In this document: positions 1-21,105 of the stretch, piece after piece
Position numbering within the stretch: the stretch's first letter is position 1
Layout: every line of letters starts with the position of its first letter
DNA from: Massilimicrobiota sp. An134
Lineage (GTDB): Bacteria; Bacillota_I; Bacilli_A; Erysipelotrichales; Coprobacillaceae
Assembly (NCBI RefSeq): GCF_002160815.1
Contig: NZ_NFLH01000025.1
Coordinates: 1-35,726, forward strand
DNA: 35,726 nucleotides
Reading direction: 5' to 3'
Notes under the pieces: generated by a model
What the model was told of the DNA's origin: nothing
Databases searched by the model: none
Seen by the model: only the letters and a program-made list of their open reading frames with translations
Position numbers and translations under genes: made by a program

Positions 1-2
1 AA

Positions 3-113
3 TTAAAACCTTATATTCCTACAAAAATGAAAATAGTCAAATGGCTGGGAACCATAGTTGGATTTGCAATAATTGCTTTAATTATTGCTTTAATAATGAG
101 TAAGATGGTTTGA
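3..113 (+). CDS. 3' end of a membrane protein (partial)
   Basis: The frame is open from the left edge of the window to a TGA at 111-113. The readable tail is a short charged stretch (PTKMKIVKW), then one strongly hydrophobic helix of about 22 residues rich in Ile, Ala and Leu, and a basic end. This suggests the last transmembrane segment of a membrane protein that begins outside the window. An ATG at 27 could start a small single-helix peptide instead, but I see no clear ribosome binding site before it. The family cannot be named. Confidence 0.4.
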   Translation, partial: LKPYIPTKMKIVKWLGTIVGFAIIALIIALIMSKMV

Positions 114-144
114 AAATTGTAATTTGAAAAGGAGATATACTGAA

Positions 145-882
145 TTGGATACTAAACGGTTAGCAAAATTTCTTATAATTACATTTGTTATTACAGGGAT
201 AGCCTGGTCTGGACTTGCTGTGTTAACAAGTTTAAATATTATCCCATTTTCGCATCCTTTAGGCACTATTTTACATATTATAGGAGGATTCGGACCGACA
301 ATAGCAACTTTCTGTGTCTTAGAAGAAAAAAACACGGTTAAATCTATATTAGATTTTATTTTTGGCTACAGAAAGAAATCATTGATTTTTTTGTTTTTAT
401 TTTCTATTTTTGAAATACTGACAATAGGTTTATCGTCAAGGGAATTTAATTCCGCATTACCATGGTATTTGATGCCTTTAATCTTTCTTCAAGCAACATT
501 TATATATGGCGGCGAAGAAGAATTGGGTTGGAGAGGTGTTATGCAGCCTTTATTAGAGGAAAAATTGAATTTCCCTATAGCCACAATCATTACGGGTGTT
601 GTGTGGGGAATTTGGCATATTCCCCTTTGGTTTGTAAATGGCTCATCGCAACAAAATATGCCATTTCTATTTTTCTTAGCGTTAGCTGTTATACTGAGCT
701 TTTGGCTGGCGACAATTTACAAAAAAACGAAATGTGTTTTTGCTTGTAGTGTTTTTCATGGATTGACAAATACTCTTTTGTCTGTATTTATAATTAAAGT
801 GAATGTTCTATTGGTAATAGGACTGATTGCTATGCTTGTATATTCAATATATTTATGGTATTGTGGAGAAGCAAAACAATAA
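145..882 (+). CDS. CPBP family intramembrane glutamic endopeptidase
   Basis: A multi-pass membrane protein of the CPBP (Abi/Rce1-like) protease family. The three family motifs are visible: GGEEELGWRG (the EExxxR motif, catalytic Glu pair and Arg), WGIWHIPLWF (second motif, His) and FHGLTN (third motif, His). Several hydrophobic helices lie before, between and after them. The frame is open from a TTG at 124, but AAAAGGAGA at 127-135 sits about 10 nt before a TTG at 145. I therefore take 145 as the start, giving about 245 residues. Family members process prenylated or peptide substrates, and some act in bacteriocin self-immunity; the substrate here is unknown. It follows the partial membrane gene by 31 nt and may share its operon. 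A strong hairpin terminator follows at 964. Confidence 0.85.
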   Translation: MDTKRLAKFLIITFVITGIAWSGLAVLTSLNIIPFSHPLGTILHIIGGFGPTIATFCVLEEKNTVKSILDFIFGYRKKSLIFLFLFSIFEILTIGLSSREFNSALPWYLMPLIFLQATFIYGGEEELGWRGVMQPLLEEKLNFPIATIITGVVWGIWHIPLWFVNGSSQQNMPFLFFLALAVILSFWLATIYKKTKCVFACSVFHGLTNTLLSVFIIKVNVLLVIGLIAMLVYSIYLWYCGEAKQ

Positions 883-908
883 ATTCCAATTTATCTATTC
901 AATCCTCT

Positions 909-929
909 ATAAACCCTGTATTTTCAAGG
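909..929 (+). repeat. Direct repeat A, left copy (candidate att site)
   Basis: A 21-nt stretch that matches 3992-4012 at 19 of 21 positions in the same orientation; the shared core is TATTTTCAAGG. It lies just outside the integrase fragment, where the end of an integrated element would be expected. Interpretation as attL is inference. Confidence 0.35.
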
Positions 930-963
930 CATACCGCCTATTAAATGTTCAAACCTTATGTAT

Positions 964-1009
964 TTTCCCTTGTTTTTGCCCTTATGAGCCGAAACAAGGG
1001 AAATTTTTT
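964..1009 (+). terminator. Rho-independent terminator after the CPBP gene
   Basis: Perfect 12-bp stem TTTCCCTTGTTT / AAACAAGGGAAA (964-975 and 992-1003) followed directly by six T (1004-1009). It is placed to end plus-strand transcription from the protease and also lies between that gene and the opposing integrase fragment. The loop includes part of repeat B (TTTGCCCTTATGA at 975-987), which recurs at 3917-3929. Confidence 0.75.
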
Positions 1010-1400
1010 ATTCTCCGCCGATTACCTTATCCAGCAGTCTTGCGGAAGTACGCTTCGCTTCCCTTGTAGCGTGAGCGTAAATGTTCATTGTGGTACTGAC
1101 ATCAGCGTGTCCGAGAAGTTCCTGCACATCTTTAGGTGCTGCACCGTTTGAAAGCAGATTGCTTGTATAAGTGTGTCTGAGCATATGGAAGTGAAAATCC
1201 TCCAATCCCTCCACCTTTTTTCTTGCTGTCCTGCACATAATCTCCACTGTACTCGGTGCTTCAAATGCCCCGTCAGGTCTAAGGCAGACAAAGGATAATT
1301 CCTTGTACCCCTCTGGGACTTCCTCCGACCTCGGCAGACTGTAAACCTCATAGTAGGTGCGGTCTTTTTCTTTAACCTCCAGCAGGACAAAGTTCTGCCG
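1008..1400 (-). pseudogene. Tyrosine integrase, C-terminal fragment (ICE/transposon type)
   Basis: The minus strand encodes the last ~130 residues of a Tn916-like tyrosine recombinase. The fragment contains HMLRHTYTS (HxxR), the LGHAD box and the Tyr of [10 protein letters not shown], which is the nucleophile, and ends [10 protein letters not shown]. The N-terminal arm-binding domain and the first catalytic Arg are missing. Upstream of about 1400 the frame runs antisense through the relaxase fragment, so the real gene is cut there. G+C is visibly higher than in the host genes further right, which supports horizontal origin. The surviving gene end points to the left edge of the element, as is usual when int lies next to att. 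It should not be active. Confidence 0.8.
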
Positions 1401-1403
1401 CAG

Positions 1404-1787
1404 TTGAAACAGCAGCTTGCCGATACAAAGGGGCTTTTCAAAGTCAAAGAGCGAAAAGCGTTGGAAGTAAAAATCAAAGAAACCGAAGCAGAGATTGCCG
1501 ACAGGCTGGATAAAATCCCCGACACGCTCAAAGAGGACGGTTATCCCGATGTACAAGTTTTTATGAGGACTTTCCGAGAAATGGAAAGCGTTGTAGAACA
1601 GTACAACCGTGACCTTGCCGAGTGGAAATATCAAGTCAGCAGGAAACCGACAGCCACCGCTAAAGAACAGCACAGACCGCCCGAAAAGCAAAGCGTGTTA
1701 AAACATCTGCGTGAGATACAGGAACGCAACAAGCAGAAGCCACCGCAAAAACAGCGTAAGAAATCCATTGACAGAGATAGCCGATAG
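1404..1787 (+). pseudogene. MobA/MobL-type relaxase, C-terminal fragment
   Basis: About 127 residues, highly charged and rich in Lys, Glu and Gln. They resemble the C-terminal tail of clostridial mobilization relaxases: a coiled-coil-like region ([20 protein letters not shown]), then [10 protein letters not shown] and a basic Lys/Gln tail. No N-terminal relaxase Tyr or His triad is present, and the TTG at 1404 has no convincing ribosome binding site. The left edge coincides with the point where the opposing integrase fragment loses its own sense, so a deletion or rearrangement probably fused the two genes tail-inward. Assignment to the Mob family is from recognition of the tail and is less secure than the integrase call. 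Confidence 0.6.
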
Positions 1788-1792
1788 GCATT

Positions 1793-1827
1793 GAAAAACC
1801 GCCGTTATGGTTTACCCATAGCGGCGG
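1793..1827 (-). terminator. Terminator for the KTR cargo operon
   Basis: GC-rich hairpin: CCGCCGTTATGG (1799-1810) pairs with CCATAGCGGCGG (1816-1827) with one G-T pair. On the minus strand it is followed by a T run (complement of AAAAA at 1794-1798). It lies just past the KTR stop codon and faces the relaxase fragment. Confidence 0.75.
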
Positions 1828-1836
1828 CATACATAG

Positions 1837-2016
1837 TTATTTACTGACTGCAAGCGTGATTTTCATATCTTGAACATTGATAAGTGTTTCTTTCTTGCAC
1901 TTCGGACAGTAGAGAGGAAAGTTTTTCATCTCGGTATCTTCTTGTATCTTTGTTCGGGTTTTATTGCCGCAGACAGGGCATAATACAAATTTACAATCAG
2001 TCTCTTTATTCTGCAC
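1837..2016 (-). CDS. Cysteine-rich KTR domain protein
   Basis: A small protein of 59 residues with two CxxC knuckles, CPVCGNKTR and CPKCKKETLI, which is the layout of the Cys_rich_KTR family found as cargo in Firmicute conjugative elements. The two knuckles probably bind one zinc; the function is unknown. The frame stays open to 2091, but that upstream part is antisense-free overlap with the hydrolase gene. A GTG at 2016 gives the family's usual length and has GGAGG 12 nt before it, so I choose it. The start overlaps the end of the upstream hydrolase by 11 nt, which suggests translational coupling in the padR-hydrolase-KTR operon. Confidence 0.75.
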   Translation of the reverse strand: MQNKETDCKFVLCPVCGNKTRTKIQEDTEMKNFPLYCPKCKKETLINVQDMKITLAVSK

Positions 2017-2794
2017 TTGTCCAAAAATCCTCCATAGTTTCATTAAACTCCCGTGGCACATCCATATTGACACAGTGCCCTGCATTTTCAAAAATAACTA
2101 CCCTACAATTTGGCTCACTTATTTTCCATTGTTTTACTGCCTCTAATTCCATTGGAATATCAAAGCTTCCACATCCAATCAACAAAGGGTAATTTCGTTT
2201 TCCAGTTTTATACTTATTTATCATACTATTGAGCGTTGCCAGAAACATAAATGACTTTTTTGGAAAAAGTATGTTCATATCAAAAAACTCATTTTGCGCC
2301 TCTAAAGTATGCGCAGAAATTTTCTTGTTTTCTTTTGCAAACCACTTGACCGAAAAGAGGGCTTTCAACATCATCGCCATCTGTTTCGCACCATTTTTCC
2401 TTTGCATTTTAATATCAAAATTATTGATGTCATATCCTCCAAAGCACGCCAATGAGCTTACTGAGTTTGGATGATGATTAGCAAAATCCTGTGCCAGTAC
2501 TGCTCCTAATGAAACGCCGACAATGTGTACTTTTTCAATATTTTCTACCTTTAAGATGTCGAATATCCATTCTGACATCTTATCTATGCCATCTCCTTTT
2601 TTGGTATCCGTTGACTGTCCATGACCAATAATGTCAATAGTCAAAATATTATATTTGTTGTGAAAATACTCAAACTGTGATTTGAACATATTATGATTGA
2701 CAAAAGCGGCGTGAATAAAAAGTATCCATTCGGTATGATCTATTCCACTGATAAAATATGTAATTGGCGAATTAGCTAACTTTATTGATTTCAT
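2006..2794 (-). CDS. Alpha/beta hydrolase
   Basis: A 262-residue soluble alpha/beta hydrolase. Visible features are the oxyanion-side HGQS segment after strand 3-4 (IDIIGHGQSTD), the nucleophile elbow GVSLG (Ser), an acid in the GSFDIP region, and the catalytic His in ENAGHCVNMD near the end. The full triad appears intact, so the enzyme is probably active on an ester or similar small molecule. GAGAGGA precedes the ATG. Its start overlaps the padR stop by 4 nt (ATGA), so it is the second gene of a PadR-controlled operon. PadR control suggests a detoxification or stress role, but the substrate cannot be read from the sequence. Confidence 0.85.
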   Translation of the reverse strand: MKSIKLANSPITYFISGIDHTEWILFIHAAFVNHNMFKSQFEYFHNKYNILTIDIIGHGQSTDTKKGDGIDKMSEWIFDILKVENIEKVHIVGVSLGAVLAQDFANHHPNSVSSLACFGGYDINNFDIKMQRKNGAKQMAMMLKALFSVKWFAKENKKISAHTLEAQNEFFDMNILFPKKSFMFLATLNSMINKYKTGKRNYPLLIGCGSFDIPMELEAVKQWKISEPNCRVVIFENAGHCVNMDVPREFNETMEDFWTSAE

Positions 2795-3330
2795 ATCTTG
2801 CTTCCTCTCATTTCATCAAGAAGTTTTTGATACCACTCAATATTGAATTTCATAAAATCTTTGCCATATCGAGCTGCGGTAAACTGATAATGGAGAATGT
2901 CCTTATTTTTATCAGGAACTTTGACATTTTCTGCTTCCTTACAAATTGCATTCAACACATCATACTGTTCCTTTAACTTTGAAATATACTCTTGTAATCC
3001 TGCCTCACGCTTTTCTTTTGTTGAAAAACCCATAAAATATAATTTAGCCAATTCAGGATTTTTGCTACTCTGTATTTCCATTGGCATGGATACCCACTCA
3101 ATAAAATGCTGTTTCCCACTATCGGTTATGGAATAAATCTTTTTATATTTTCCATTCTCAATGACCTCTTCATACTGAACATATCCACAATTAAGCAATT
3201 TCTTTATAGCAGCCTGTATACTGCCCATACTGCTGCTATACATCATATTAAGCCCTTTATCTATTCTTTCACGCAACTGATAAATTGTTCTGCTGCTCAA
3301 CAGTAAAAGACCGAGTATTATATTATCCAT
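2791..3330 (-). CDS. PadR family transcriptional regulator
   Basis: 179 residues. The N-terminal winged helix (about 1-75) has the typical PadR start MDNIILGLLLLSSRTIYQL and the wing YKKIYSITDSGKQHF. The C-terminal half (about 85-175) is a helical dimerization domain of the Vir/PadR-C type. PadR proteins are usually repressors that respond to small molecules and often repress their own gene. This one has a consensus promoter and an interlocking palindrome directly upstream (3354-3395), which supports autorepression of the padR-hydrolase-KTR operon. It overlaps the next gene by 4 nt. Confidence 0.9.
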   Translation of the reverse strand: MDNIILGLLLLSSRTIYQLRERIDKGLNMMYSSSMGSIQAAIKKLLNCGYVQYEEVIENGKYKKIYSITDSGKQHFIEWVSMPMEIQSSKNPELAKLYFMGFSTKEKREAGLQEYISKLKEQYDVLNAICKEAENVKVPDKNKDILHYQFTAARYGKDFMKFNIEWYQKLLDEMRGSKI

Positions 3331-3346
3331 ACACTTCTCCTATATA

Positions 3347-3395
3347 TTACTATTAGTAATATTACTATTATATCAAGTCCCTCTAATAGTGTCAA
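3347..3395 (-). promoter_or_regulatory. Consensus promoter and palindromic operator of padR
   Basis: Reading the minus strand, TTGACA (3395-3390) and TATAAT (3372-3367) are separated by exactly 17 bp, a perfect sigma-A promoter. A perfect 14-bp palindrome TAGTAATATTACTA (3354-3367) overlaps the 3' end of the -10 box, and another ATTACTA arm lies at 3347-3353, before the ribosome binding site. This is a good candidate PadR operator; binding is inferred from position only. Confidence 0.75.
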
Positions 3396-3400
3396 TAGAT

Positions 3401-3429
3401 AATAAAAGAGGCAGGAAATGTCATGCCTC
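3401..3429 (-). terminator. Terminator after tnpV
   Basis: Stem GAGGCA / TGCCTC (arms at 3408-3413 and 3424-3429) with a T-rich tail on the minus strand (complement of AATAAAA at 3401-3407). It separates tnpV from the padR promoter. Confidence 0.55.
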
Positions 3430-3437
3430 CAAAATAG

Positions 3438-3818
3438 TTATGCGTAGATTATCTCGTTATTTATAACCTCTATCGCACACGCCCGTATGTTATTCATTTT
3501 TTGTACCCATTCTAAGGCGTTTTCTGACTTTAACTGTTCTGTTATGTCTTGTGACTGTTTCATCTGTTCCACAAGCCTTTCAAAGCATTCCTCCGCCTGT
3601 TTATCGACATCGGCAAGATATTCATTTAACTTGCCACTTGTGAGCAGCGTAGTGTAAACCGCCCGTTTATGTTCCTGTAAATAGCGTTTATGTCGCTGTC
3701 CCCATAAGCCGATAGGCTTGTGTTCTTTTTCGGTTGGTAAAGTAAGGCAAGGAATATAATAATCTCCTTGCAGTTCATACCATAAACCATGGCTTTCATC
3801 AAAAATGTACTTGTCCAT
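3438..3818 (-). CDS. tnpV: TnpV family transposon protein
   Basis: A 126-residue soluble protein. It matches the TnpV family of clostridial transposons (Tn4451/Tn4453 group) in its start (a short acidic lead, then YELQGDYYIPCL), its central IGLWGQRHKRYLQEH segment, and a Glu/Gln/Lys-rich helical C-terminal half with WVQKMNNIRACA. The role of TnpV is not established; it travels with serine-recombinase transposons and other mobile elements. CGGAGGA sits 9 nt before the ATG. Here it is separated from any large resolvase, so it marks mobile DNA and does not indicate a working transposon. Confidence 0.75.
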   Translation of the reverse strand: MDKYIFDESHGLWYELQGDYYIPCLTLPTEKEHKPIGLWGQRHKRYLQEHKRAVYTTLLTSGKLNEYLADVDKQAEECFERLVEQMKQSQDITEQLKSENALEWVQKMNNIRACAIEVINNEIIYA

Positions 3819-3858
3819 ATAATAAATCCTCCGTTATAATATATTCGCACATATGTCA

Positions 3859-4204
3859 CAGTTCTCCGATTGCCACACTCTGTTATATCTTGTTATGAGA
3901 TTTTCTTGTCCTTGAATTTGCCCTTATGATTGTGCAGAACAAGGGTAACATTGTGTGAAATCATATAGAGAGATAAGTCGAACACATTGCGATAAATCCT
4001 TTATTTTCAAGGATTTTGGAGGATTTTATTGATAACCTATGGAGAGCAATAAACACTCATAATTTTATGGTTTTCAAATTCCAATTTGTAGAGTATGAAA
4101 ATCGAAATTATATCAATATAAAGAAAAACAGGTATTTCTTTGAGTTGAAAAGTAGTTATGAAACTATAAAATACTAGCTATAACGTAAATAGGTGTGATA
4201 TGTC
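3859..4204. other. Non-coding junction at the right edge of the mobile remnant
   Basis: No convincing gene. It holds the right copies of repeat B (TTTGCCCTTATGA at 3917-3929 and AACAAGGG at 3938-3945) and repeat A (3992-4012), followed by AT-rich sequence. These repeats mirror those near the integrase fragment and make this the likely right border of the inserted element. Confidence 0.45.
3992..4012 (+). repeat. Direct repeat A, right copy (candidate att site)
   Basis: Matches 909-929 at 19 of 21 positions in the same orientation, with core TATTTTCAAGG. It lies outside tnpV at the presumed right end of the element. The role as attR is inferred. Confidence 0.35.
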
Positions 4205-4208
4205 GTTT

Positions 4209-4284
4209 TGGCAATGCAACAAGTAAGCGACAAATAGACTTAAAAGCCTTTGTTTTATAAGGCTTCGGAGTTCTCAAAACGTTA
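4209..4284 (+). repeat. 76-nt repeat R, copy 1
   Basis: Matches 5458-5533 at 71 of 76 positions with no gaps. Ends are identical in both copies (TGGCAATGCAACAAG at the left, CGGAGTTCTCAAAACGTTA at the right). The centre forms a hairpin, AAGCCTT (4244-4250) with AAGGCTT (4259-4265). A terminator and then the DUF1016 gene follow. The sequence can be read as a short peptide frame on either strand, but most differences would change amino acids, whereas the base pairing is kept. Confidence 0.85.
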
Positions 4285-4287
4285 GTA

Positions 4288-4320
4288 ATAATTGTTGTGA
4301 GAAAATTAGAGAAGTATTTA
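4288..4320 (+). repeat. 33-nt repeat S, copy 1
   Basis: Directly follows repeat R and matches 6739-6771 at 29 of 33 positions. Similarity continues weakly to the left of both copies (AAAAC..TAGT), so S may be the right part of a longer R-S element. Confidence 0.6.
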
Positions 4321-4328
4321 GACTTTGT

Positions 4329-4353
4329 AAGAAGTTTAGATGCTTCTTTTTTT
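4329..4353 (+). terminator. Small terminator-like hairpin before the DUF1016 pseudogene
   Basis: AAGAAG (4329-4334) pairs with CTTCTT (4343-4348) across an 8-nt loop, followed by a T run to 4353. The stem is short and AT-rich, so it is weak. It lies between repeat R/S and the gene, as does the stronger one after copy 2 of R. Confidence 0.45.
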
Positions 4354-4408
4354 CTTTTTAAAATAAGGGTATAATAAGAATAATTAATATTGAAAGGAGT
4401 AGTTGATT

Positions 4409-5431
4409 GTGGAAAATAATTTGTTAAACAATGAAGCATTAGTAAATGAAATTGCTAGTATTATCACAAATGCTAGAAATAATGTCGCAAAACAAGTAAA
4501 TAATGAACTTTTAAATGCTTATTGGAATATTGGTCGTGTTATTGTTGAAGATGAATTGAAGAATAATCGTGGTGAATATGGGAAAAAACAATGACTTGCT
4601 ATTTCAAAAAATCTTACTAATAAATTTGGAAAAGGTTTTTCACAATCTAATTTATATAACACGAAAATGTTCTATACGAAATATCCAATTTTCCAGTCAG
4701 TGACTGGAAAATTGAGCTGGACTCATTATTGCGAATTATTATATATATCTGATGATGACAAACGTGGTTTCTATGAAAAAGAAGCAATTAATGCAAATTG
4801 GTCAGTAAGAGAGTTAAAAAGACAAATTAGCTCTTCATTATTCGAAAGGTTGTTATTATCAAATGGGGAGACTAATAAAAAGAAGGTTCTTGAATTAGCG
4901 CTAAAAGGAAATGAAATTGCCAAACCAGAAGATATAGTAAAAGATCCTTATGTTTTTGAATTTCTAGGTCTGCCAGAAAATAAACCAATGATGGAATCTG
5001 ATTTGGAAGAAGCTCTTGTTAGACAAATTGAAAAGTTTCTTTTGGAACTTGGAAAAGGATTTATGTTTGTAGGAACTCAGCAAAGAGTAACGTTCGGGAA
5101 TATTCATTATTATGTTGATATGGTTTTCTATAATAAAATTTTAAGATCTTATGTATTGATAGAATTAAAAACTATCAAATTAATGCCTGAAGCAGTTGGG
5201 CAACTTAATATGTACTTGAATTAGTATACAGCAGAAATTAATGACGAAAATGATAATCCACCAATTGGATTGATTTTATGCACTGATAAAGGCAATGTTG
5301 ATATGCAGTATGCATTAGGAGGCTTGAGTAATAATATTTTTGCTTCAAAATATGTAACATATATGCCTGATAAGGAACAATTTATTGCTCAGGTTGAAGC
5401 TGTATTATCATCTAATAATAATACAGAATAA
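4409..5431 (+). pseudogene. DUF1016/YhcG-like PD-(D/E)XK nuclease, broken by two stop codons
   Basis: A continuous frame of 341 codons from GTG 4409 (AAAGGAG 9 nt before it) to TAA 5429-5431. It is interrupted only by TGA at 4592-4594 (codon 62) and TAG at 5222-5224 (codon 272). The N-terminal domain (NNVAKQVNNELLNAYWNIGR) and the nuclease domain (about 200-330: ALVRQIEKFLLELGKGFMFVG, YYVDMVFYN, YVLIELK) both fit the DUF1016 family. The D..E.K active-site pattern is visible in VDMVFYN...LIELK. The family usually has a Tyr near the second stop (NYY), so TAT to TAG fits there. No frameshift is present. Family members are linked to type I restriction loci and DNA repair or defence. The central piece, 4667-5224, could still start at an internal ATG, but probably as a non-functional fragment. 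Confidence 0.85.
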
Positions 5432-5457
5432 GTGAATATAAGTTTTGTGAGTGGTTA

Positions 5458-5533
5458 TGGCAATGCAACAAGTAAGCGACAAATAGGCTTAAAAACCCTT
5501 ATTTTATAAGGTTTCGGAGTTCTCAAAACGTTA
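5458..5533 (+). repeat. 76-nt repeat R, copy 2
   Basis: Second copy of the R repeat. Relative to copy 1 the hairpin arms have changed together: G4246 is A5495 and its partner C4263 is T5512, which preserves a pair. One further arm position (5498 C) is now a mismatch or bulge. The copy sits directly after the DUF1016 pseudogene and before a terminator and the Fic gene. Confidence 0.85.
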
Positions 5534-5549
5534 ATCAAAACAAATACGG

Positions 5550-5584
5550 AAAAAGATTCAAGATTATATCTTGGGTCTTTTTTT
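5550..5584 (+). terminator. Terminator between repeat R copy 2 and the Fic gene
   Basis: AGATTCAAGAT (5554-5564) pairs with ATCTTGGGTCT (5568-5578), 11 pairs including two G-T, extended by flanking A and T runs. T run at 5578-5584. It separates transcription across R from the next gene. Confidence 0.65.
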
Positions 5585-5662
5585 GTGCTTGTTAATGAAA
5601 TAAATGTAAATAAATGATATAATAAATTAATTAATAAAATTTCAGATGAAGAAGGTGATATT

Positions 5663-6619
5663 ATGATTGATATAGTAGAAAGAAATGAAGTTGTACAATT
5701 TAAAAATGGAGATTTTGTATTAGATGTTACTATTGATTCTAATAAGGAAACAGTATGGTTAAATAGAGAACAATTATCACAATTGTTTGATAGGGATATC
5801 AAGACAATAGGGAGACATATTAATAATGCATTAAAAGAAGAATTAGATAATTCAACTGTCGCAAAATTTGCGACAGTTCAAAAAGAAGGCACTCGTCAAG
5901 TGACTCGACAAATTGAATATTATAACTTAGATATGATAATAAGTATTGGATATAGAGTAAAATCTAAAAATGGTATTCTTTTTAGAAAATGGGCTCATAA
6001 TATATTAAGAGAATACTTATTAAAAGGATATGTTATAAATGATAGACATTTTCAAGATATTGAATATGTTACAAAAATGCTGGATCAATATAAAGAAGCA
6101 GGTGGGAAATTACCATCGAGTGATGCTATGTTAGAATTTTTAAAAGCTTATCAAAGAGGTTTTAAAATATTAGATGATTATGATCATCATACTTTAGAAG
6201 TACCTGAAGGACAAAAAGATGTTTATGTTATTCAATATGATGAATGTATAAAATTGATACACAATACAATGTTTGCAAACCAAGGAGATCAATTTGCAAT
6301 TGAAAGAGATGATTCATTTAAAAGTAGTATATCAACCATATATCAAAGTTTTGGAGGAAATCACTTATATCCAACACTTGAAGACAAAGCAAGTGCATTA
6401 TTATATTTTATTGTTAAAAACCATAGCTTTATTGATGGTAATAAAAGAATAGGGGCAACAATATTTTTATATTTTTTAGAAAAGAACAATGCATTATATA
6501 AAAATGGAAAAGAAAGAATTAATAATGATGCTTTAGCGACTTTAACGATATTAGTCGCAACGTCAAGACCAGAAGATAAAGATATTATGATGCAACTTAT
6601 TAAGACAATTATCAAATAA
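5663..6619 (+). CDS. RhuM-like / Fic (death-on-curing) domain protein
   Basis: 318 residues in two parts. Residues about 1-150 resemble the RhuM/virulence family (VWLNREQLSQLFDRDIKTIGRH as a helix-turn-helix-like start, then RQIEYYNLDMIISIGYRVKS). The C-terminal part (about 180-310) is a Fic/Doc fold with the motif HSFIDGNKRIGA beginning at His254. The motif has Lys where AMP-transferring Fic enzymes have Gly/Arg (HPFxxGNGR), which is the Doc-like form associated with kinase activity. GGTGAT lies before the ATG. These proteins are common next to type I restriction genes and DUF1016 nucleases; none of the former are seen here. Whether it is a toxin, and what restrains it, is not visible. Confidence 0.85.
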   Translation: MIDIVERNEVVQFKNGDFVLDVTIDSNKETVWLNREQLSQLFDRDIKTIGRHINNALKEELDNSTVAKFATVQKEGTRQVTRQIEYYNLDMIISIGYRVKSKNGILFRKWAHNILREYLLKGYVINDRHFQDIEYVTKMLDQYKEAGGKLPSSDAMLEFLKAYQRGFKILDDYDHHTLEVPEGQKDVYVIQYDECIKLIHNTMFANQGDQFAIERDDSFKSSISTIYQSFGGNHLYPTLEDKASALLYFIVKNHSFIDGNKRIGATIFLYFLEKNNALYKNGKERINNDALATLTILVATSRPEDKDIMMQLIKTIIK

Positions 6620-6824
6620 GAGGAATATTCTTTAATAATGAAATGTTTTAACCATAATTCATTTTTGGCATCTTTTAGTTAATTGAAAGTGTTAATAAAA
6701 TCAATGAATTTGGGTGTTATTTGAGTAAAACAATAGTCATAATTGTTATGAGAGGATGAGAGAAGTATTTAAAATTGATGAAAGGCAAGAAAGTATATGA
6801 GTAAGAAAAAGAAAAAATCATACG
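6620..6824. other. Intergenic stretch with the S repeat
   Basis: Contains S copy 2 (6739-6771) and a tiny frame at 6797 (16 residues, Lys-rich) that I do not consider a gene. Nothing else recognizable. Confidence 0.4.
6739..6771 (+). repeat. 33-nt repeat S, copy 2
   Basis: Matches 4288-4320 at 29 of 33 positions, with three of four differences being transitions. It lies downstream of the Fic gene with no full R copy beside it; only a degraded AAAAC..TAGT trace is present. Confidence 0.6.
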
Positions 6825-8949: not shown

Positions 8950-9798
<849 letters not shown>

Positions 9799-9814
9799 TT
9801 ATTCCTCCTATTTT

Positions 9815-10564
9815 TTAAAATGATCCATGTCCACCATCAACGGCATATACAGATCCAGTGACATAGCTTGCTTCATCACTTGCTAAAAACAAAGCGACAT
9901 TGGCAACTTCCTGCGCTTGACCAAATCTTTTCACTGGAATTGTATCTGTAATTCTTTTTTCATGAGCTCTTTCTTCTTCAGAAAGATTTGTTGAATTCCA
10001 AATATTGGTTCTAATGGCGCCAGGAGCAATTGCATTTACTCTGACACCATCTTGAGCTAAATCTAAAGCCCAAGCTCTTGTAAAGTTTTCAACAGCAGCT
10101 TTTGCACCTACATACATAGAAAGTTGATAATTTGTATGTTGTGCTCCTACTGAAGATAAATTAATAATATTTCCTTTTGTCTTTAATAACAATGGTAAAC
10201 TTTGGATAGTTAAATCAACCAATGCTCTGACATCAAGAGCAAAAGCCTGATCATAATCTTCAATTGTCATGTCTTTAATAGATTGGACAGGACACCATCC
10301 TGCATTATTCACAAGGATATCTAACTGCCCATCAAAACGATCTTTGATACAATTCATTATTTTATCAACATCCTGTGAATTTGTGATATCTCCTGCAACA
10401 TAAGAAATTTTTGAATCTGTAGAAGCTGTTTGTTTTAATGGTTCTTCACGTCTTCCAGTGATCACGACATAAGCACCCTCTTTTGCAAAACGCTAGGCAA
10501 TGGCTTGTCCAATACCAGAACCACCGCCTGTAATCAAAGCGACTTTCTTATCCAATTGACCCAT
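9815..10564 (-). pseudogene. SDR oxidoreductase broken by one TAG
   Basis: The frame from ATG 10564 to the stop at 9815 encodes a short-chain dehydrogenase/reductase of about 249 codons. It is interrupted only by TAG at 10495-10493 (codon 24), directly after the Rossmann motif GGGSGIGQAIA. Related proteins usually have Lys or Leu at this place. The rest is intact: NNAGW, the SSVGAQ Ser and the YVGAK Tyr/Lys pair, and the C-terminal SYVTGSVYAVDGG. A GTG at 10465 could restart translation, but it would lose the cofactor-binding strand. Probably inactive unless the stop is read through. Neighbours are intact and on the same strand. Confidence 0.85.
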
Positions 10565-10578
10565 TTTTATTCCTTCTT

Positions 10579-11136
10579 TCATTTTAATTGATTGCCATCT
10601 TCAAAAGCATTTCCAACTTTCTCTCCAATCACAACATAATCATTGTTGACGGGATCAAAAGAAATAGGTTGTAACTTTTGAATATCAATCATTCCTTTTT
10701 CATTTAAAATACTTTCATCTGCACTGATATTCACAATTTCACCAATAATATTGCCATCTTCTGTTGTTTTCACTAAACGACATTCTAAAGTCATTGGTAA
10801 TTCTTCAATGATAGGTGCATCTACAAAATCACTTTTTCTTGTTGTAAAACCAGCTTTTTCCATTTTATCAGGTGTATTGTTAGCAGAAACCATACCAACA
10901 TAGTCACAAGCTACAACATTTTTAGCATCTGCAAAACTAACAGTAAAAGCTTTCTTTTCTTTAATATTTTTTGTTGTCTTATGACCAGCACTTAAACAAA
11001 GTTCAATCAAATTGGCATCATATAAACCACCCCAGGCAGCATTCATAGCATCAGCTTGATTATTGCTGTCATATGTTCCAATAATTAAAACTGGTAAAGG
11101 ATAAAACCAAGGTTTTGTTCCAAAATTCTTTCTCAT
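10579..11136 (-). CDS. Flavin reductase family protein
   Basis: 185 residues of the FMN-binding split-barrel flavin reductase family (MRKNFGTKPWFYPLPV, MNAAWGG, CLSAGHKTTKNI, FTVSFAD). This group binds FMN and reduces flavin with NAD(P)H, or reduces flavin-linked substrates. The frame extends further upstream, but AAGGAGG lies 7 nt before the ATG at 11136, so this start is preferred. It is separated by 14 nt from the broken SDR downstream and probably shares its transcript. Upstream (11137-11314) is a hairpin-rich leader that could hold its own promoter. Confidence 0.85.
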   Translation of the reverse strand: MRKNFGTKPWFYPLPVLIIGTYDSNNQADAMNAAWGGLYDANLIELCLSAGHKTTKNIKEKKAFTVSFADAKNVVACDYVGMVSANNTPDKMEKAGFTTRKSDFVDAPIIEELPMTLECRLVKTTEDGNIIGEIVNISADESILNEKGMIDIQKLQPISFDPVNNDYVVIGEKVGNAFEDGNQLK

Positions 11137-11169
11137 TATTATTCCTCCTTGAAGTGATTTATGAAAGTT

Positions 11170-11237
11170 CTCCCCAAAACAACTGTTTTTCAATATGTCA
11201 TGAAGGTTTAGAAAGGCATAAATATGTTATTGGGGAG
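11170..11237 (-). promoter_or_regulatory. Inverted repeat in the flavin reductase leader
   Basis: CTCCCCAA (11170-11177) and TTGGGGAG (11230-11237) are perfect complements separated by 52 nt. It is a GC-rich pair in AT-rich sequence directly upstream of the flavin reductase, so it may be a leader structure or operator. No known riboswitch could be recognized. Confidence 0.35.
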
Positions 11238-11314
11238 GAAAAATATTGTATGGAAATGTGATACAAAAGAATGTTTGATTTTGGAATGTGTTGTTGAAAT
11301 AATGGGAAGTTGAA

Positions 11315-12277
11315 TTAATGATTCCAAAACCACAACAAACCATTGTATGTGTACTCATGAGAAGCCTTTGCATCATGTGAAGCTCCTTCTTTAATCAGAT
11401 AGTTTAAATTTCCTTTTGTTTCATCATTGGCGAAACGAAAGATGTTGTCATCTGCATTTTTCATAGCTTCAATCTGTGATGTGAATGACTGATAGGCAAA
11501 ATCATCAGTACCAGAAAAGGCAAAGATGAAGAAATCATTCCATGAATAACCAGCATTTTCCACAATGGAAGTCATATAATCTCCATCACTAGTTAAACTG
11601 CCACTCATAGGCATGAAATAACGAAAATAATCAAGACAGTATTCAAAAGTATGCCAAGTTGCGACTGAACCCATTGAGAAACCACCAAAACCTCTATGAT
11701 CTCGTGATTGACGTAAACCTTCAGGCGTTGTATCTTTGGCATACGTACTGTATTTACCTTCTACAGCTGGTATTAAATCATTGACTAGTTCATTATGATA
11801 GTTATCAGTTAATGTCAGAGCCAGACTATAGTTATCACTATCATCAGGATTTTCATTATTATAAGTTGGACATACAATAATGAGTGGATCCATCAATCCA
11901 TCTTCAATCGCATGGTCAATAGCATATTTTAATTCAGTTGGCTGCGAAGATGTTCCTAAAACAGTTGTTTCATTACTCCAGCCTCCATGCATTAAATAGA
12001 AAATGTTATAGGATTGATGGGGATCATATTGATAGGGAAGGTAGACATAAGCACTTTTCTGTAATGTTTTGTCATGGGATTCATAGCTTAAGGATTCATA
12101 TGTTGTATAATCCAGTTGAACGAGTTCACCTGAATGTGTTGCCGGTGATTTATAATTTTCTGGAATGCTTTGAATCTCTAAAGCTGTGTTTTCCTGCTTA
12201 GAAGTTTGATTTGAAGAACAGCCAGCCAGACATGTTGATAATATTGTCAATGTGAGTAAAGCTTTCTTGATAGACAT
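11315..12277 (-). CDS. Lipoprotein esterase (alpha/beta hydrolase, CE1-like)
   Basis: 320 residues. Signal peptide with lipobox LAGC (Cys20), then a low-complexity linker and an esterase D/CE1-like domain. Visible are FYLMHGGW (oxyanion loop), the nucleophile elbow GFSMGS, an Asp in GTDDFA and the His in GASHDAKASHEY. It should be anchored on the outer face of the membrane and act on extracellular esters such as feruloyl- or acetyl-decorated polysaccharides; the substrate is a guess. It ends 3 nt before the lipoflavodoxin gene begins its stop, so the two are one unit. The two lipoproteins stand together within a cluster of reductases. Confidence 0.85.
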   Translation of the reverse strand: MSIKKALLTLTILSTCLAGCSSNQTSKQENTALEIQSIPENYKSPATHSGELVQLDYTTYESLSYESHDKTLQKSAYVYLPYQYDPHQSYNIFYLMHGGWSNETTVLGTSSQPTELKYAIDHAIEDGLMDPLIIVCPTYNNENPDDSDNYSLALTLTDNYHNELVNDLIPAVEGKYSTYAKDTTPEGLRQSRDHRGFGGFSMGSVATWHTFEYCLDYFRYFMPMSGSLTSDGDYMTSIVENAGYSWNDFFIFAFSGTDDFAYQSFTSQIEAMKNADDNIFRFANDETKGNLNYLIKEGASHDAKASHEYTYNGLLWFWNH

Positions 12278-12280
12278 CGT

Positions 12281-12961
12281 TTATAATCCTAAACTTTCAA
12301 CCCAGTCAACAATTTCACTTTCTGCATCAGCAACATCATTTCTGGAAATCGTTAAACCATCTTCAATCACTGTTGCATTTGGCTGTAATTCTTCAATAGT
12401 ACTGATGGTACTTGAAAATCGGCTGCCACCATGAGTATTAAACGGAATAATCGTTTTATCACTGAAATCATATGCTTCTAAGAATGTATATAATGGCATT
12501 GGCATATCTCCCCACCAGTTTGGATAACCAAGAAAAATCACATCATAATCATCCAAATTGTCAATAGTTGTTTTTAATGCTGGACGTGCATTTTCATCCT
12601 GTTCATCTGCAGCCTGATCAACTAAAGGATCATGTGTTCCAGGATATGTCTGCTCTGTTTCAATCTGAAATAGATCACCACCAGTATTGTCTTGAATGAC
12701 TCTAGCGACATATTCAGTTGCACCCATCAGTTCATTATTATTGATAACACGACTGGCAGATGAAGACATATCTGTTCCATCAGTTTCAGGCATTGTGAAA
12801 TAAGCAATGAGTATTTTTCCATTATTTTGGATTTGACTTGTTTCTGGTGTAGAAGTTGTTTCGTTTTGAGATGTATTCTCTGGCGTTGATGGCTGACTTT
12901 GACAAGCTGTTAAACTCAATAGCGAGCCAGCGCATAATAGACTGATCCATAATTTTTTCAT
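12281..12961 (-). CDS. Lipoprotein flavodoxin
   Basis: 226 residues. Signal peptide MKKLWISLLCAGSLLSLTAC with lipobox LTAC (Cys20), a Ser/Thr/Gln/Asn-rich linker to about 45, then a flavodoxin fold beginning ILIAYFTMPETDGTD. GYPNWWGDMPMP is the second FMN loop and FNTHGGSRFSSTI the third, as in Flavodoxin_4 family proteins. It is therefore an exported, membrane-anchored flavin protein, which is uncommon relative to cytosolic flavodoxins. AGGAGG precedes the ATG. It may shuttle electrons at the cell surface. The neighbours are an esterase lipoprotein and two aldo/keto reductases. Confidence 0.85.
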   Translation of the reverse strand: MKKLWISLLCAGSLLSLTACQSQPSTPENTSQNETTSTPETSQIQNNGKILIAYFTMPETDGTDMSSSASRVINNNELMGATEYVARVIQDNTGGDLFQIETEQTYPGTHDPLVDQAADEQDENARPALKTTIDNLDDYDVIFLGYPNWWGDMPMPLYTFLEAYDFSDKTIIPFNTHGGSRFSSTISTIEELQPNATVIEDGLTISRNDVADAESEIVDWVESLGL

Positions 12962-12993
12962 ATGAAGACCTCCTTAATCTGATATCATGTTTT

Positions 12994-13842
12994 TTAATCG
13001 TGAATCTTTAATTGTGATAATCTGACTTCATTGGCAGGATCTTCAGGATTGTGTGTTGGTTTACCTGTATCTAAAGCACGCATTTTTTCCATTTCTTGGG
13101 CATTCAATTCGAAATCAAAAATATCAATATTTCCTTTCATTCTTTCAGGATTTGTAGATTTTGGTAAAGAAATAACACCTTCCTGATAAATCCAACGTAA
13201 GATAATCTGACCAGCATTTTTATGATATTTGTCAGCTAATTCACAAATAACAGGATTTTCTAATAATTCTTTATTACCATGTCCTAAAGGATACCATGCT
13301 TCTAAAAGAATATGATTTTCATCCATCACTTTTCTGAGTTCTCTTTGTTGAACAAATGGGTTAAATTCTACCTGATTGACTGCAGGCATGACTTTCATAC
13401 CATCCTTAAATTGATTCCATAAGTTGACAGTGATATTAGAAATACCAATAGATTTCAATTTTCCTTCTTCATAAGCTTCTTCTAAAGCTTTCCATGCTCC
13501 TAAATAATCACCATAGGGCTGATGTAATAAATAAAGATCAATGTAATCTACACCAAGCAGTCTTAATGAATTTTCAATCCCTTTTTTCGCATTTTCATAT
13601 CCATAATCCTGTAACCATAATTTAGAAGTAATAAAAATATCTTGACGATCAATACCACTATCTTTGATTGCTTTTCCAACATCGCTTTCATTCATATATC
13701 CAGCAGCTGTATCAATATGACGATATCCTGCTTTTAAAGCAGCTAATGTGGCATCGTAAGTTGGGCCATCGTTTGGAATCATAAAAACGCCAAAACCGAC
13801 GGCAGGAATGTGTTGTTTGTTGTTGAGTTCAAATGTTTTCAT
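12994..13842 (-). CDS. Aldo/keto reductase (second copy)
   Basis: 282 residues, AKR family. The tetrad is in place: DTAAGYMNES (Asp, Tyr), TSKLW (Lys) and LLHQPYGDY (His). NADPH-binding SLPKSTNPERMKGNIDIF is near the C-terminus. It shares the pattern and gene neighbourhood of the copy at 13839-14711, and overlaps it by 4 nt (ATGA), so the two are translated from one message. About 150 nt upstream of its far end the cluster continues with the lipoflavodoxin. Confidence 0.9.
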   Translation of the reverse strand: MKTFELNNKQHIPAVGFGVFMIPNDGPTYDATLAALKAGYRHIDTAAGYMNESDVGKAIKDSGIDRQDIFITSKLWLQDYGYENAKKGIENSLRLLGVDYIDLYLLHQPYGDYLGAWKALEEAYEEGKLKSIGISNITVNLWNQFKDGMKVMPAVNQVEFNPFVQQRELRKVMDENHILLEAWYPLGHGNKELLENPVICELADKYHKNAGQIILRWIYQEGVISLPKSTNPERMKGNIDIFDFELNAQEMEKMRALDTGKPTHNPEDPANEVRLSQLKIHD

Positions 13843-14711
13843 ATGTGTATCTCCTTTGTTGAATTTTCATGAATTTTAAATTTGTTTAAGTTTTTAGCAG
13901 TTGAATAACATTGATAATCAATGATTTCACTATGACCAAGATTGAGTTTATTCATTTCTATAAAATCATCCTGATCTAATTGAAAATCCCATATATCCAT
14001 ATTTTCAATCATGCGTTCTTGATGAATTGTTTTCGGAATCGCAATAATTCCTTGTTGGATTTGCCATCTTAATACAATTTGGGCAACTGTTTTATGATGT
14101 TTTTTTGCTATTTTTAATAATATTGGATTTTCAAAAATATGTCTTTGACCTTCATTCAATGGTCCCCATGCCTGTGTTATACATTGATATTGTTCAAACA
14201 GGTGATGAGCTTCTTTTTGTTGAAAGAATGGATGATATTCGATTTGATTAATCATCGGTTTAATAGAACAGTTCATATATAAATCTACAAATCTTTCCGG
14301 ACTAAAATTACAGACACCCAGTGCTCTGATTTTTCCTTTCATATATAATTCTTCCATGGCTCTATAAGATCCATAGTAATCACCATAAGGTTGATGAATC
14401 AGATACAAATCAATATAATCTAAACCTAAATTTTCTAAAGATGTCTGGAAAGCTTTCATTGTCTTTTCATAACCAGTATCTTGAACCCATACCTTGGTTG
14501 TGATAAAGAGTTCTTTTCTAGGAATTTGAGATTTTTGTAAAGCTTTACCAATTTCTTTTTCATTCAAATAAGCAGCCGCACTGTCAATAAGACGATAACC
14601 ACTTTCTAAGGCATGAAGAATACATTTTTCAGTCTGTAAAGGTGGAATCTGAAATGTTCCATAACCTAACATAGGCATCATGACACCATTATTGAGTTTT
14701 TGATATTGCAT
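13839..14711 (-). CDS. Aldo/keto reductase (first gene of the minus-strand cluster)
   Basis: 290 residues of an AKR TIM barrel. DSAAAYLNEKEIG gives Asp and Tyr, TTKVW the Lys and LIHQPYGDY the His; IPKTIHQERMIENM is the cofactor region. A ribosome binding site AAAGGAGGAAG lies before the ATG. It is the promoter-proximal gene of the redox cluster and is divergent from the LysR regulator, so it is the likely direct target. The C-terminal tail is longer than in the second copy. Confidence 0.9.
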   Translation of the reverse strand: MQYQKLNNGVMMPMLGYGTFQIPPLQTEKCILHALESGYRLIDSAAAYLNEKEIGKALQKSQIPRKELFITTKVWVQDTGYEKTMKAFQTSLENLGLDYIDLYLIHQPYGDYYGSYRAMEELYMKGKIRALGVCNFSPERFVDLYMNCSIKPMINQIEYHPFFQQKEAHHLFEQYQCITQAWGPLNEGQRHIFENPILLKIAKKHHKTVAQIVLRWQIQQGIIAIPKTIHQERMIENMDIWDFQLDQDDFIEMNKLNLGHSEIIDYQCYSTAKNLNKFKIHENSTKEIHI

Positions 14712-20893: not shown

Positions 20894-20911
20894 ATTAGGG
20901 CAGTCGTTAAT

Positions 20912-20988
<77 letters not shown>

Positions 20989-21012
20989 TTAATAACTGTT
21001 ATATATATACAT

Positions 21013-21089
<77 letters not shown>

Positions 21090-21105
21090 TGTATAATTGA
21101 ATAAT

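Follow-up and report, generated by a model that had tools for sequence, protein, structure and literature searches.

Putative attachment sites of small mobile cassettes stacked behind rpsI in Erysipelotrichales

Integrative elements inserted at the 3' end of rpsI are known from other bacteria. In Streptococcus salivarius, CIMEs (cis-mobilizable elements) of 1.2-13 kb are stacked at rpsI and at three other genes (PMC7563491). Those at rpsI (PMC7563491, PMC5704250) start at 1.2 kb, have attachment (att) sites at both ends, carry neither an integrase nor a relaxase, and are stacked at the 3' end of the gene together with an integrase-bearing element. In Macrococcus caseolyticus, McRImecD and McCI-IMD0819 are tandem islands with a tyrosine integrase at the 3' end of rpsI, and the integrase-less member, the 2,773-bp McCI-IMD0819, excises as a circle (PMC5341023). 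IMESag-rpsI of Streptococcus agalactiae inserts at the same end by a site-specific recombinase of the Phage_integrase family and carries RelBE as cargo (PMC5090054). Chromosomal integrons also hold small gene cassettes in tandem, and each cassette ends in a recombination site.

The locus described here shares traits with each of these systems. Its units resemble CIMEs in being flanked by att sites (42 units) and in mostly lacking a complete integrase of their own (39 of 42) and, in the small-unit cargo scanned, any relaxase. As in rpsI-specific integrative elements, a tyrosine integrase adjoins the 3' end of rpsI, and the core of the site is the 3' end of that gene. Unlike the streptococcal CIMEs, the arrays comprise up to five units, the small units are intact across genera and two families, much of the cargo consists of candidate defence genes, and an origin by decay is not evident. 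The Macrococcus case differs in that it involves one island by a large resistance island, repeats of 160-404 bp, no shared pool of small cassettes, and another host group, whereas IMESag-rpsI is a 9.5-kb mobilizable element with its own relaxase. Compared with chromosomal integrons, the integrase is of another type, the att site is presumably double-stranded with an rpsI core, and the cassettes bring their own terminator and promoter-like sequence. What appears to be new is that the stacked units are small and stable, mostly contain one or two genes, and remain intact across two families of Erysipelotrichales; our literature searches found no account of such arrays in this order.

The repeat and the array behind rpsI

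The window, i.e. the whole stretch of 35,726 nucleotides analysed here (Massilimicrobiota sp. An134, contig NZ_NFLH01000025.1), contains two copies of a repeat, at 4209-4284 and 5458-5533. As a sequence-only reading of this DNA had reported, they are identical at 71 of 76 positions without gaps, with five positions differing. The repeat extends 4 nt leftward to an 80-nt unit at 4205-4284 and 5454-5533 on the + strand (two-copy consensus GTTWTGGCAATGCAACAAGTAAGCGACAAATAGRCTTAAAARCCYTTRTTTTATAAGGYTTCGGAGTTCTCAAAACGTTA). Chance is ruled out as its source by the 56 copies recovered, with E-values down to 1e-24. We are highly confident that each copy is an attachment site marking the right end of a small mobile cassette, and that such cassettes integrate site-specifically at the 3' end of rpsI. 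The first copy, with arm repeats, an imperfect palindrome and an rpsI core, forms the right end of a CPBP-protease cassette (nhmmer E 1.3e-22, alignment A1), and the second forms that of a DUF1016 cassette (nhmmer E 9e-24).

The last 15 nt of the repeat, GTTCTCAAAACGTTA (4270-4284 and 5519-5533, + strand), are identical to the 3' end of rpsI (uS9, ...FSKR-stop). In this genome (G000) the gene closes with ...CACAGTTCTCAAAACGTTAG, a sequence in which the final part of the repeat is found exactly. Two 11-bp direct repeats, ATGCAACAAGT and AAGCGACAAAT (4214-4235, + strand), are conserved in 50 copies and are presumed to function as arm-type integrase sites; in a divergent class of sites they read ATGCAACACGT and ATGCAACAAAA. 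Among the 50 copies, these direct repeats, a TTTTAT block and the rpsI core are the best-conserved parts, and the arms of the palindrome are the most variable. Across the core from the repeat, only certain left-end types showed arm sites. When paired arm motifs on that side were sought by regular expression, the signal was weak (5 of 52 ends), and we therefore make no general claim for the left end.

The single rpsI gene of G000 is located on another contig (C25, locus L007). C25 also carries both of the further full repeat copies in this genome, in addition to a 16-nt match that is the end of rpsI itself. Behind rpsI, C25 holds a two-gene DUF3990/XRE unit, a site, a unit with a tyrosine integrase, an Xis-like gene and MazF, another site, and 474 nt up to the contig end. 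This final piece matches the start of a CPBP cassette in genome G017, and the first 892 nt of the window align with that cassette from a point 283 nt later, which leaves a gap of roughly 280 nt between the two contigs. From these matches, the window (contig C18) is very likely the direct continuation of C25; C25 ends inside the CPBP-protease cassette where the window begins, and the window would therefore be the right half of a tandem array. On this reading, the order is rpsI, DUF3990, integrase with Xis and MazF, CPBP, DUF1016, RhuM-Fic, a decayed site with a decayed native rpsI terminator, and chromosome. The chromosomal genes in the right part of the window lie 3' of rpsI in two genomes of the same genus (G001 and G002). 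In a third (G003) they lie behind a site on a separate contig, and the rpsI contig breaks 146 nt past the gene.

All cassette features of the window are on the + strand. The left part of the CPBP-protease cassette (1-881; CDS 124-882; Rce1-like in Pfam) is truncated by the contig start and is 99.3% identical to locus L068 of G017 over window positions 1-892. It is interrupted by a transposon-like, later insertion of 3.2 kb (882-4075; Pfam), which is flanked by 12-bp repeats AAATTCCAATTT at 882-893 and 4076-4087; the corresponding sequence in G017 is uninterrupted. The insertion carries TnpV, PadR, an abhydrolase and a fragment of another tyrosine integrase. The DUF1016 (YhcG/PDDEXK nuclease) cassette spans 4285-5533, or 1,249 bp from core to core, and has matches in G279, G035 and G131. 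It opens with a terminator (4285-4363) homologous to the native rpsI terminator (89.5% to L007:3358-3449). The DUF1016 frame (4403-5431) contains in-frame stops, TGA at 4592 and TAG at 5222, which mark the gene in the window as a pseudogene; intact copies of 342 aa are present elsewhere. The left end and terminator of the RhuM-Fic cassette (5534-5590, flank type C) follow, with the same post-att flank in L070, L071 and L118. The RhuM-Fic gene, cargo of the last cassette (5663-6619, 318 aa; Pfam RhuM and Fic; PADLOC PDC-S23/S05), has an 84% identical counterpart in a cassette of G015. A decayed attachment site at 6661-6735, which aligns partially to the att consensus, is the right edge of the array, and decayed native rpsI downstream and terminator sequence lies at 6727-6776 (repeat family D15; 87% to L007:3365-3409). 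As had been observed earlier, a terminator of its own and then a new gene come after each repeat copy.

Elsewhere in the window, three neighbouring aldo-keto reductase genes (8950-14711; repeat families D1, D6 and D8) are apparently diverged duplicates, and one tRNA gene is tandemly duplicated at 20910-21099 (97% over 89 nt).

Distribution of sites and exchange of units

The 80-nt query matched 28 of 316 genomes of the order Erysipelotrichales, which belong to 14 genera in two families. Among the carriers are Traorella massiliensis, Faecalibacillus faecis, [Clostridium] spiroforme An567, Erysipelatoclostridium sp. An173 and Massilimicrobiota MAGs. A profile search at E below 1e-6 yielded the 56 copies, in about 30 Erysipelotrichales genomes. 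Every one of the 28 copies on rpsI-bearing loci is downstream of rpsI and on the same strand, at a median distance of 2.5 kb. The remaining 28 come from loci that do not include a complete rpsI; many of these loci are short contigs or the ends of contigs. At least three arrays (L068, L115 and L119) are genuinely located elsewhere. In 395 genomes that belong to the class but not to the order, the only matches were partial ones of 24-29 nt. Plasmids gave remote matches to the DUF1016 gene only, none spanning the cassette, and a search of viral contigs found none.

In G001 and G009 (L058 and L069), rpsI ends ...AAGAGAT and not ...AAACGTT, and no array is found there; host range may depend on the core sequence. 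Elsewhere in the genus of G000, L080 and L081 (G001) and L079 (G002) have DUF1016 and RhuM-Fic genes that are 79-90% identical to the cassette genes and are without terminal att sites. In two other loci (L113:1-116 and, in reverse, about 380-492 of L115), some 45 nt of the rpsI 3' end follow a non-rpsI sequence that two genera share, an arrangement that looks as though part of rpsI travels with an element.

Closed units, measured from core to core (n = 42), range from 839 to 11,469 bp with a median of about 1.66 kb, and only three contain a complete or nearly complete integrase. Different genera and families have units in common, several at 94-99.7% identity, against 64-83% for rpsI between G000 and the genomes compared. 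For instance, the DUF1016 unit is found in a genome of another family (G279) with 98.9% identity over 1,249 bp, core to core and directly behind rpsI, while the rpsI there is only 72% identical to that of G000. Further matches to this unit occur in G035 (98.1%), G016 (97.7% over 979 bp) and G131 (91.8%). The 1,669-bp DUF3990 unit recurs in G017 (99.7%) and G245 (97.7%). The switch between neighbours falls exactly at the core, and identical left-end types are found behind rpsI or behind any att site. Terminator-like structures are present at 41 of 52 left ends, compared with 7.5 in shuffled sequences and 10% of random windows.

Cargo recognized by Pfam and PADLOC includes DUF1016 (PDC-S02), AAA_14/DUF4143 (PDC-S01), RhuM-Fic (PDC-S23/S05) and XRE-DUF3990 with a partner (PDC-M13/M42-like), as well as Abi_2 (AbiD), an HNH nuclease, Phd/ParE, CPBP protease and a few metabolic genes. 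Many of these are likely phage-defence genes, for which PADLOC assigns candidate status and not proof of function. No relaxase was found among the cargo of the small units scanned. The sequence-only reading had asked whether the repeat always lies beside DUF1016, RhuM-Fic or restriction genes. Copies are indeed adjacent to DUF1016, RhuM-Fic and similar genes, but this does not reflect regulation: the repeat adjoins such genes because they are the cargo.

An alternative is that the units are decayed ICEs or IMEs (classical CIMEs) that arrived separately and spread by homologous recombination of the rpsI region or by accretion with a neighbour, rather than by their own movement. Tandem CIMEs of 1.2-13 kb are known at rpsI in S. 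salivarius (PMC7563491), and some units (L076 and L110) contain integrase remnants. Against this, the DUF1016 unit has the same ends (1,249-1,250 bp) in at least three genera and two families and in differing neighbourhoods, and this constancy of length across families argues against recent decay. The divergence of rpsI noted above also indicates that the gene was not co-transferred. Finally, one unit lies inside an unrelated gene: in G050, an integrase-less DUF3990 cassette of 1,631 bp splits a gene with an AlbA_2 domain about 52 kb from rpsI, at the core-like sequence ATTCTTTAAACGTTA, and once its flanks are joined, the reading frame is restored, with a single open stretch of 324 codons running through the junction. 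The G050 cassette cannot be explained by homologous exchange of rpsI regions. Overall, we consider decayed CIMEs a fairly unlikely but still credible account.

Integrase and proposed mechanism

The integrase of L007 retains the tyrosine recombinase residues R, H-x-x-R, H and Y, belongs to Pfam Phage_integrase and has PDB matches to Tn1549 Int and XerA. The site at the right end of its unit is of the kind found in units that lack an integrase, and is 95-96% identical to the second copy in the window. The AlphaFold model is poor overall (pLDDT 55). Its first 70 residues are modelled, with moderate confidence (pLDDT 70-76), as three strands and a helix, a part that we take to resemble the arm-binding domains of this integrase class. 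Close relatives of the enzyme occur in only 15 of 311 genomes of the order, which leaves most arrays without a nearby enzyme at present. In ten of the 15 genomes they lie within about 2.4 kb behind rpsI; in the other five they are mostly on contigs separate from rpsI, and only the most distant one is clearly elsewhere.

In the scenario that we favour, cassettes inserting by an attachment site, an rpsI-specific tyrosine integrase of the Tn916/lambda type would bind the arm repeats ATGCAACAAGT-AAGCGACAAAT. The 15-nt core of a circular cassette would then recombine with its identical counterpart, either the one that closes rpsI or one that closes a resident cassette. In G000, one unit of the array itself carries a candidate for such an integrase. 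Most units have none and would rely on an enzyme provided by a neighbour or in trans, which would make them CIME-like but stacked like integron arrays. The circular intermediate, mobilisation in trans and the identity of the acting integrase are the steps that we infer. Insertion would leave rpsI intact because the core restores the last codons and the stop. The left end of the cassette would bring a terminator that replaces that of rpsI, and the displaced native terminator would be free to decay, as is seen at 6727-6776.

The sequence-only reading had offered two explanations for the repeat. Sequence comparison lends strong support to one of them, a site of recombination in a cassette array: the core is identical to the rpsI end, units with exact core-to-core boundaries have been transferred among genera and families, one cassette occupies a secondary site, and integrases are linked to rpsI. 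The other, a structured RNA or a leader that regulates the following gene in cis, is in our view very improbable. A hairpin can be drawn in both copies, and the compensated change between them (G to A in the 5' arm, C to T in the 3' arm) is confirmed; the remaining differences are one broken pair (T-A to C-A), one wobble (A-T to G-T) and one loop base. Over 50 copies, 72.8% of cells in this hairpin are paired, with a slight excess of covariation (0.168 versus 0.142 in shuffled and at most 0.138 in slid alignments) that an imperfect palindromic protein-binding site could also yield. In the same 50 copies, RNAalifold predicted no pair and several hairpin pairs fail in 10 to 29 copies, one of them in 29, so that the arms largely vary without pairing, the outcome named in advance as refuting the hairpin. 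Folding is near the level of shuffled sequences, weakly better for copy 1 (z -1.1) and no better for copy 2 (z +0.26). Conservation peaks at the arm repeats and the rpsI core, and the repeat precedes the transcript of the next gene, with the terminator coming after it. A search of the repeat against Rfam gave no match. We rejected a structured RNA on the Rfam, RNAalifold and pair-count results.

A true integron, with single-stranded attC cassettes recombined by IntI, would fit the layout of the array, its one- and two-gene cassettes and the imperfect palindrome of each site, but was rejected as exceedingly improbable on the type of integrase (Tn916/Xer general type by Pfam Phage_integrase and the PDB matches XerA and Tn1549 Int; 70 bits with the XerA/integron-integrase model against a cut-off of 220) and on the absence of a conserved hairpin in 50 copies, and the core is moreover a piece of rpsI and the cassettes open with their own terminator.

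Cassettes and the spread of defence-type genes

Beyond the nature of the repeat, the evidence raises the broader possibility that Erysipelotrichales gut bacteria draw on a common pool of one- and two-gene defence cassettes of 1.2-1.7 kb. These would move independently, relying in trans on rpsI-specific tyrosine integrases, and each would bring a replacement terminator for rpsI, a form of integron-like capture without an integron. We find the case for and against this broader reading evenly balanced. Defence-type genes would gather behind rpsI because the cassettes insert there, next to a highly expressed gene whose terminator is replaced by each cassette. Through such cassettes, individual genes of the phage-defence type (DUF1016, DUF4143, RhuM-Fic, DUF3990 and AbiD) may spread among gut genera without a visible mobility gene, a concrete route that can be tested, and the 80-nt signature could be used to find more such genes.
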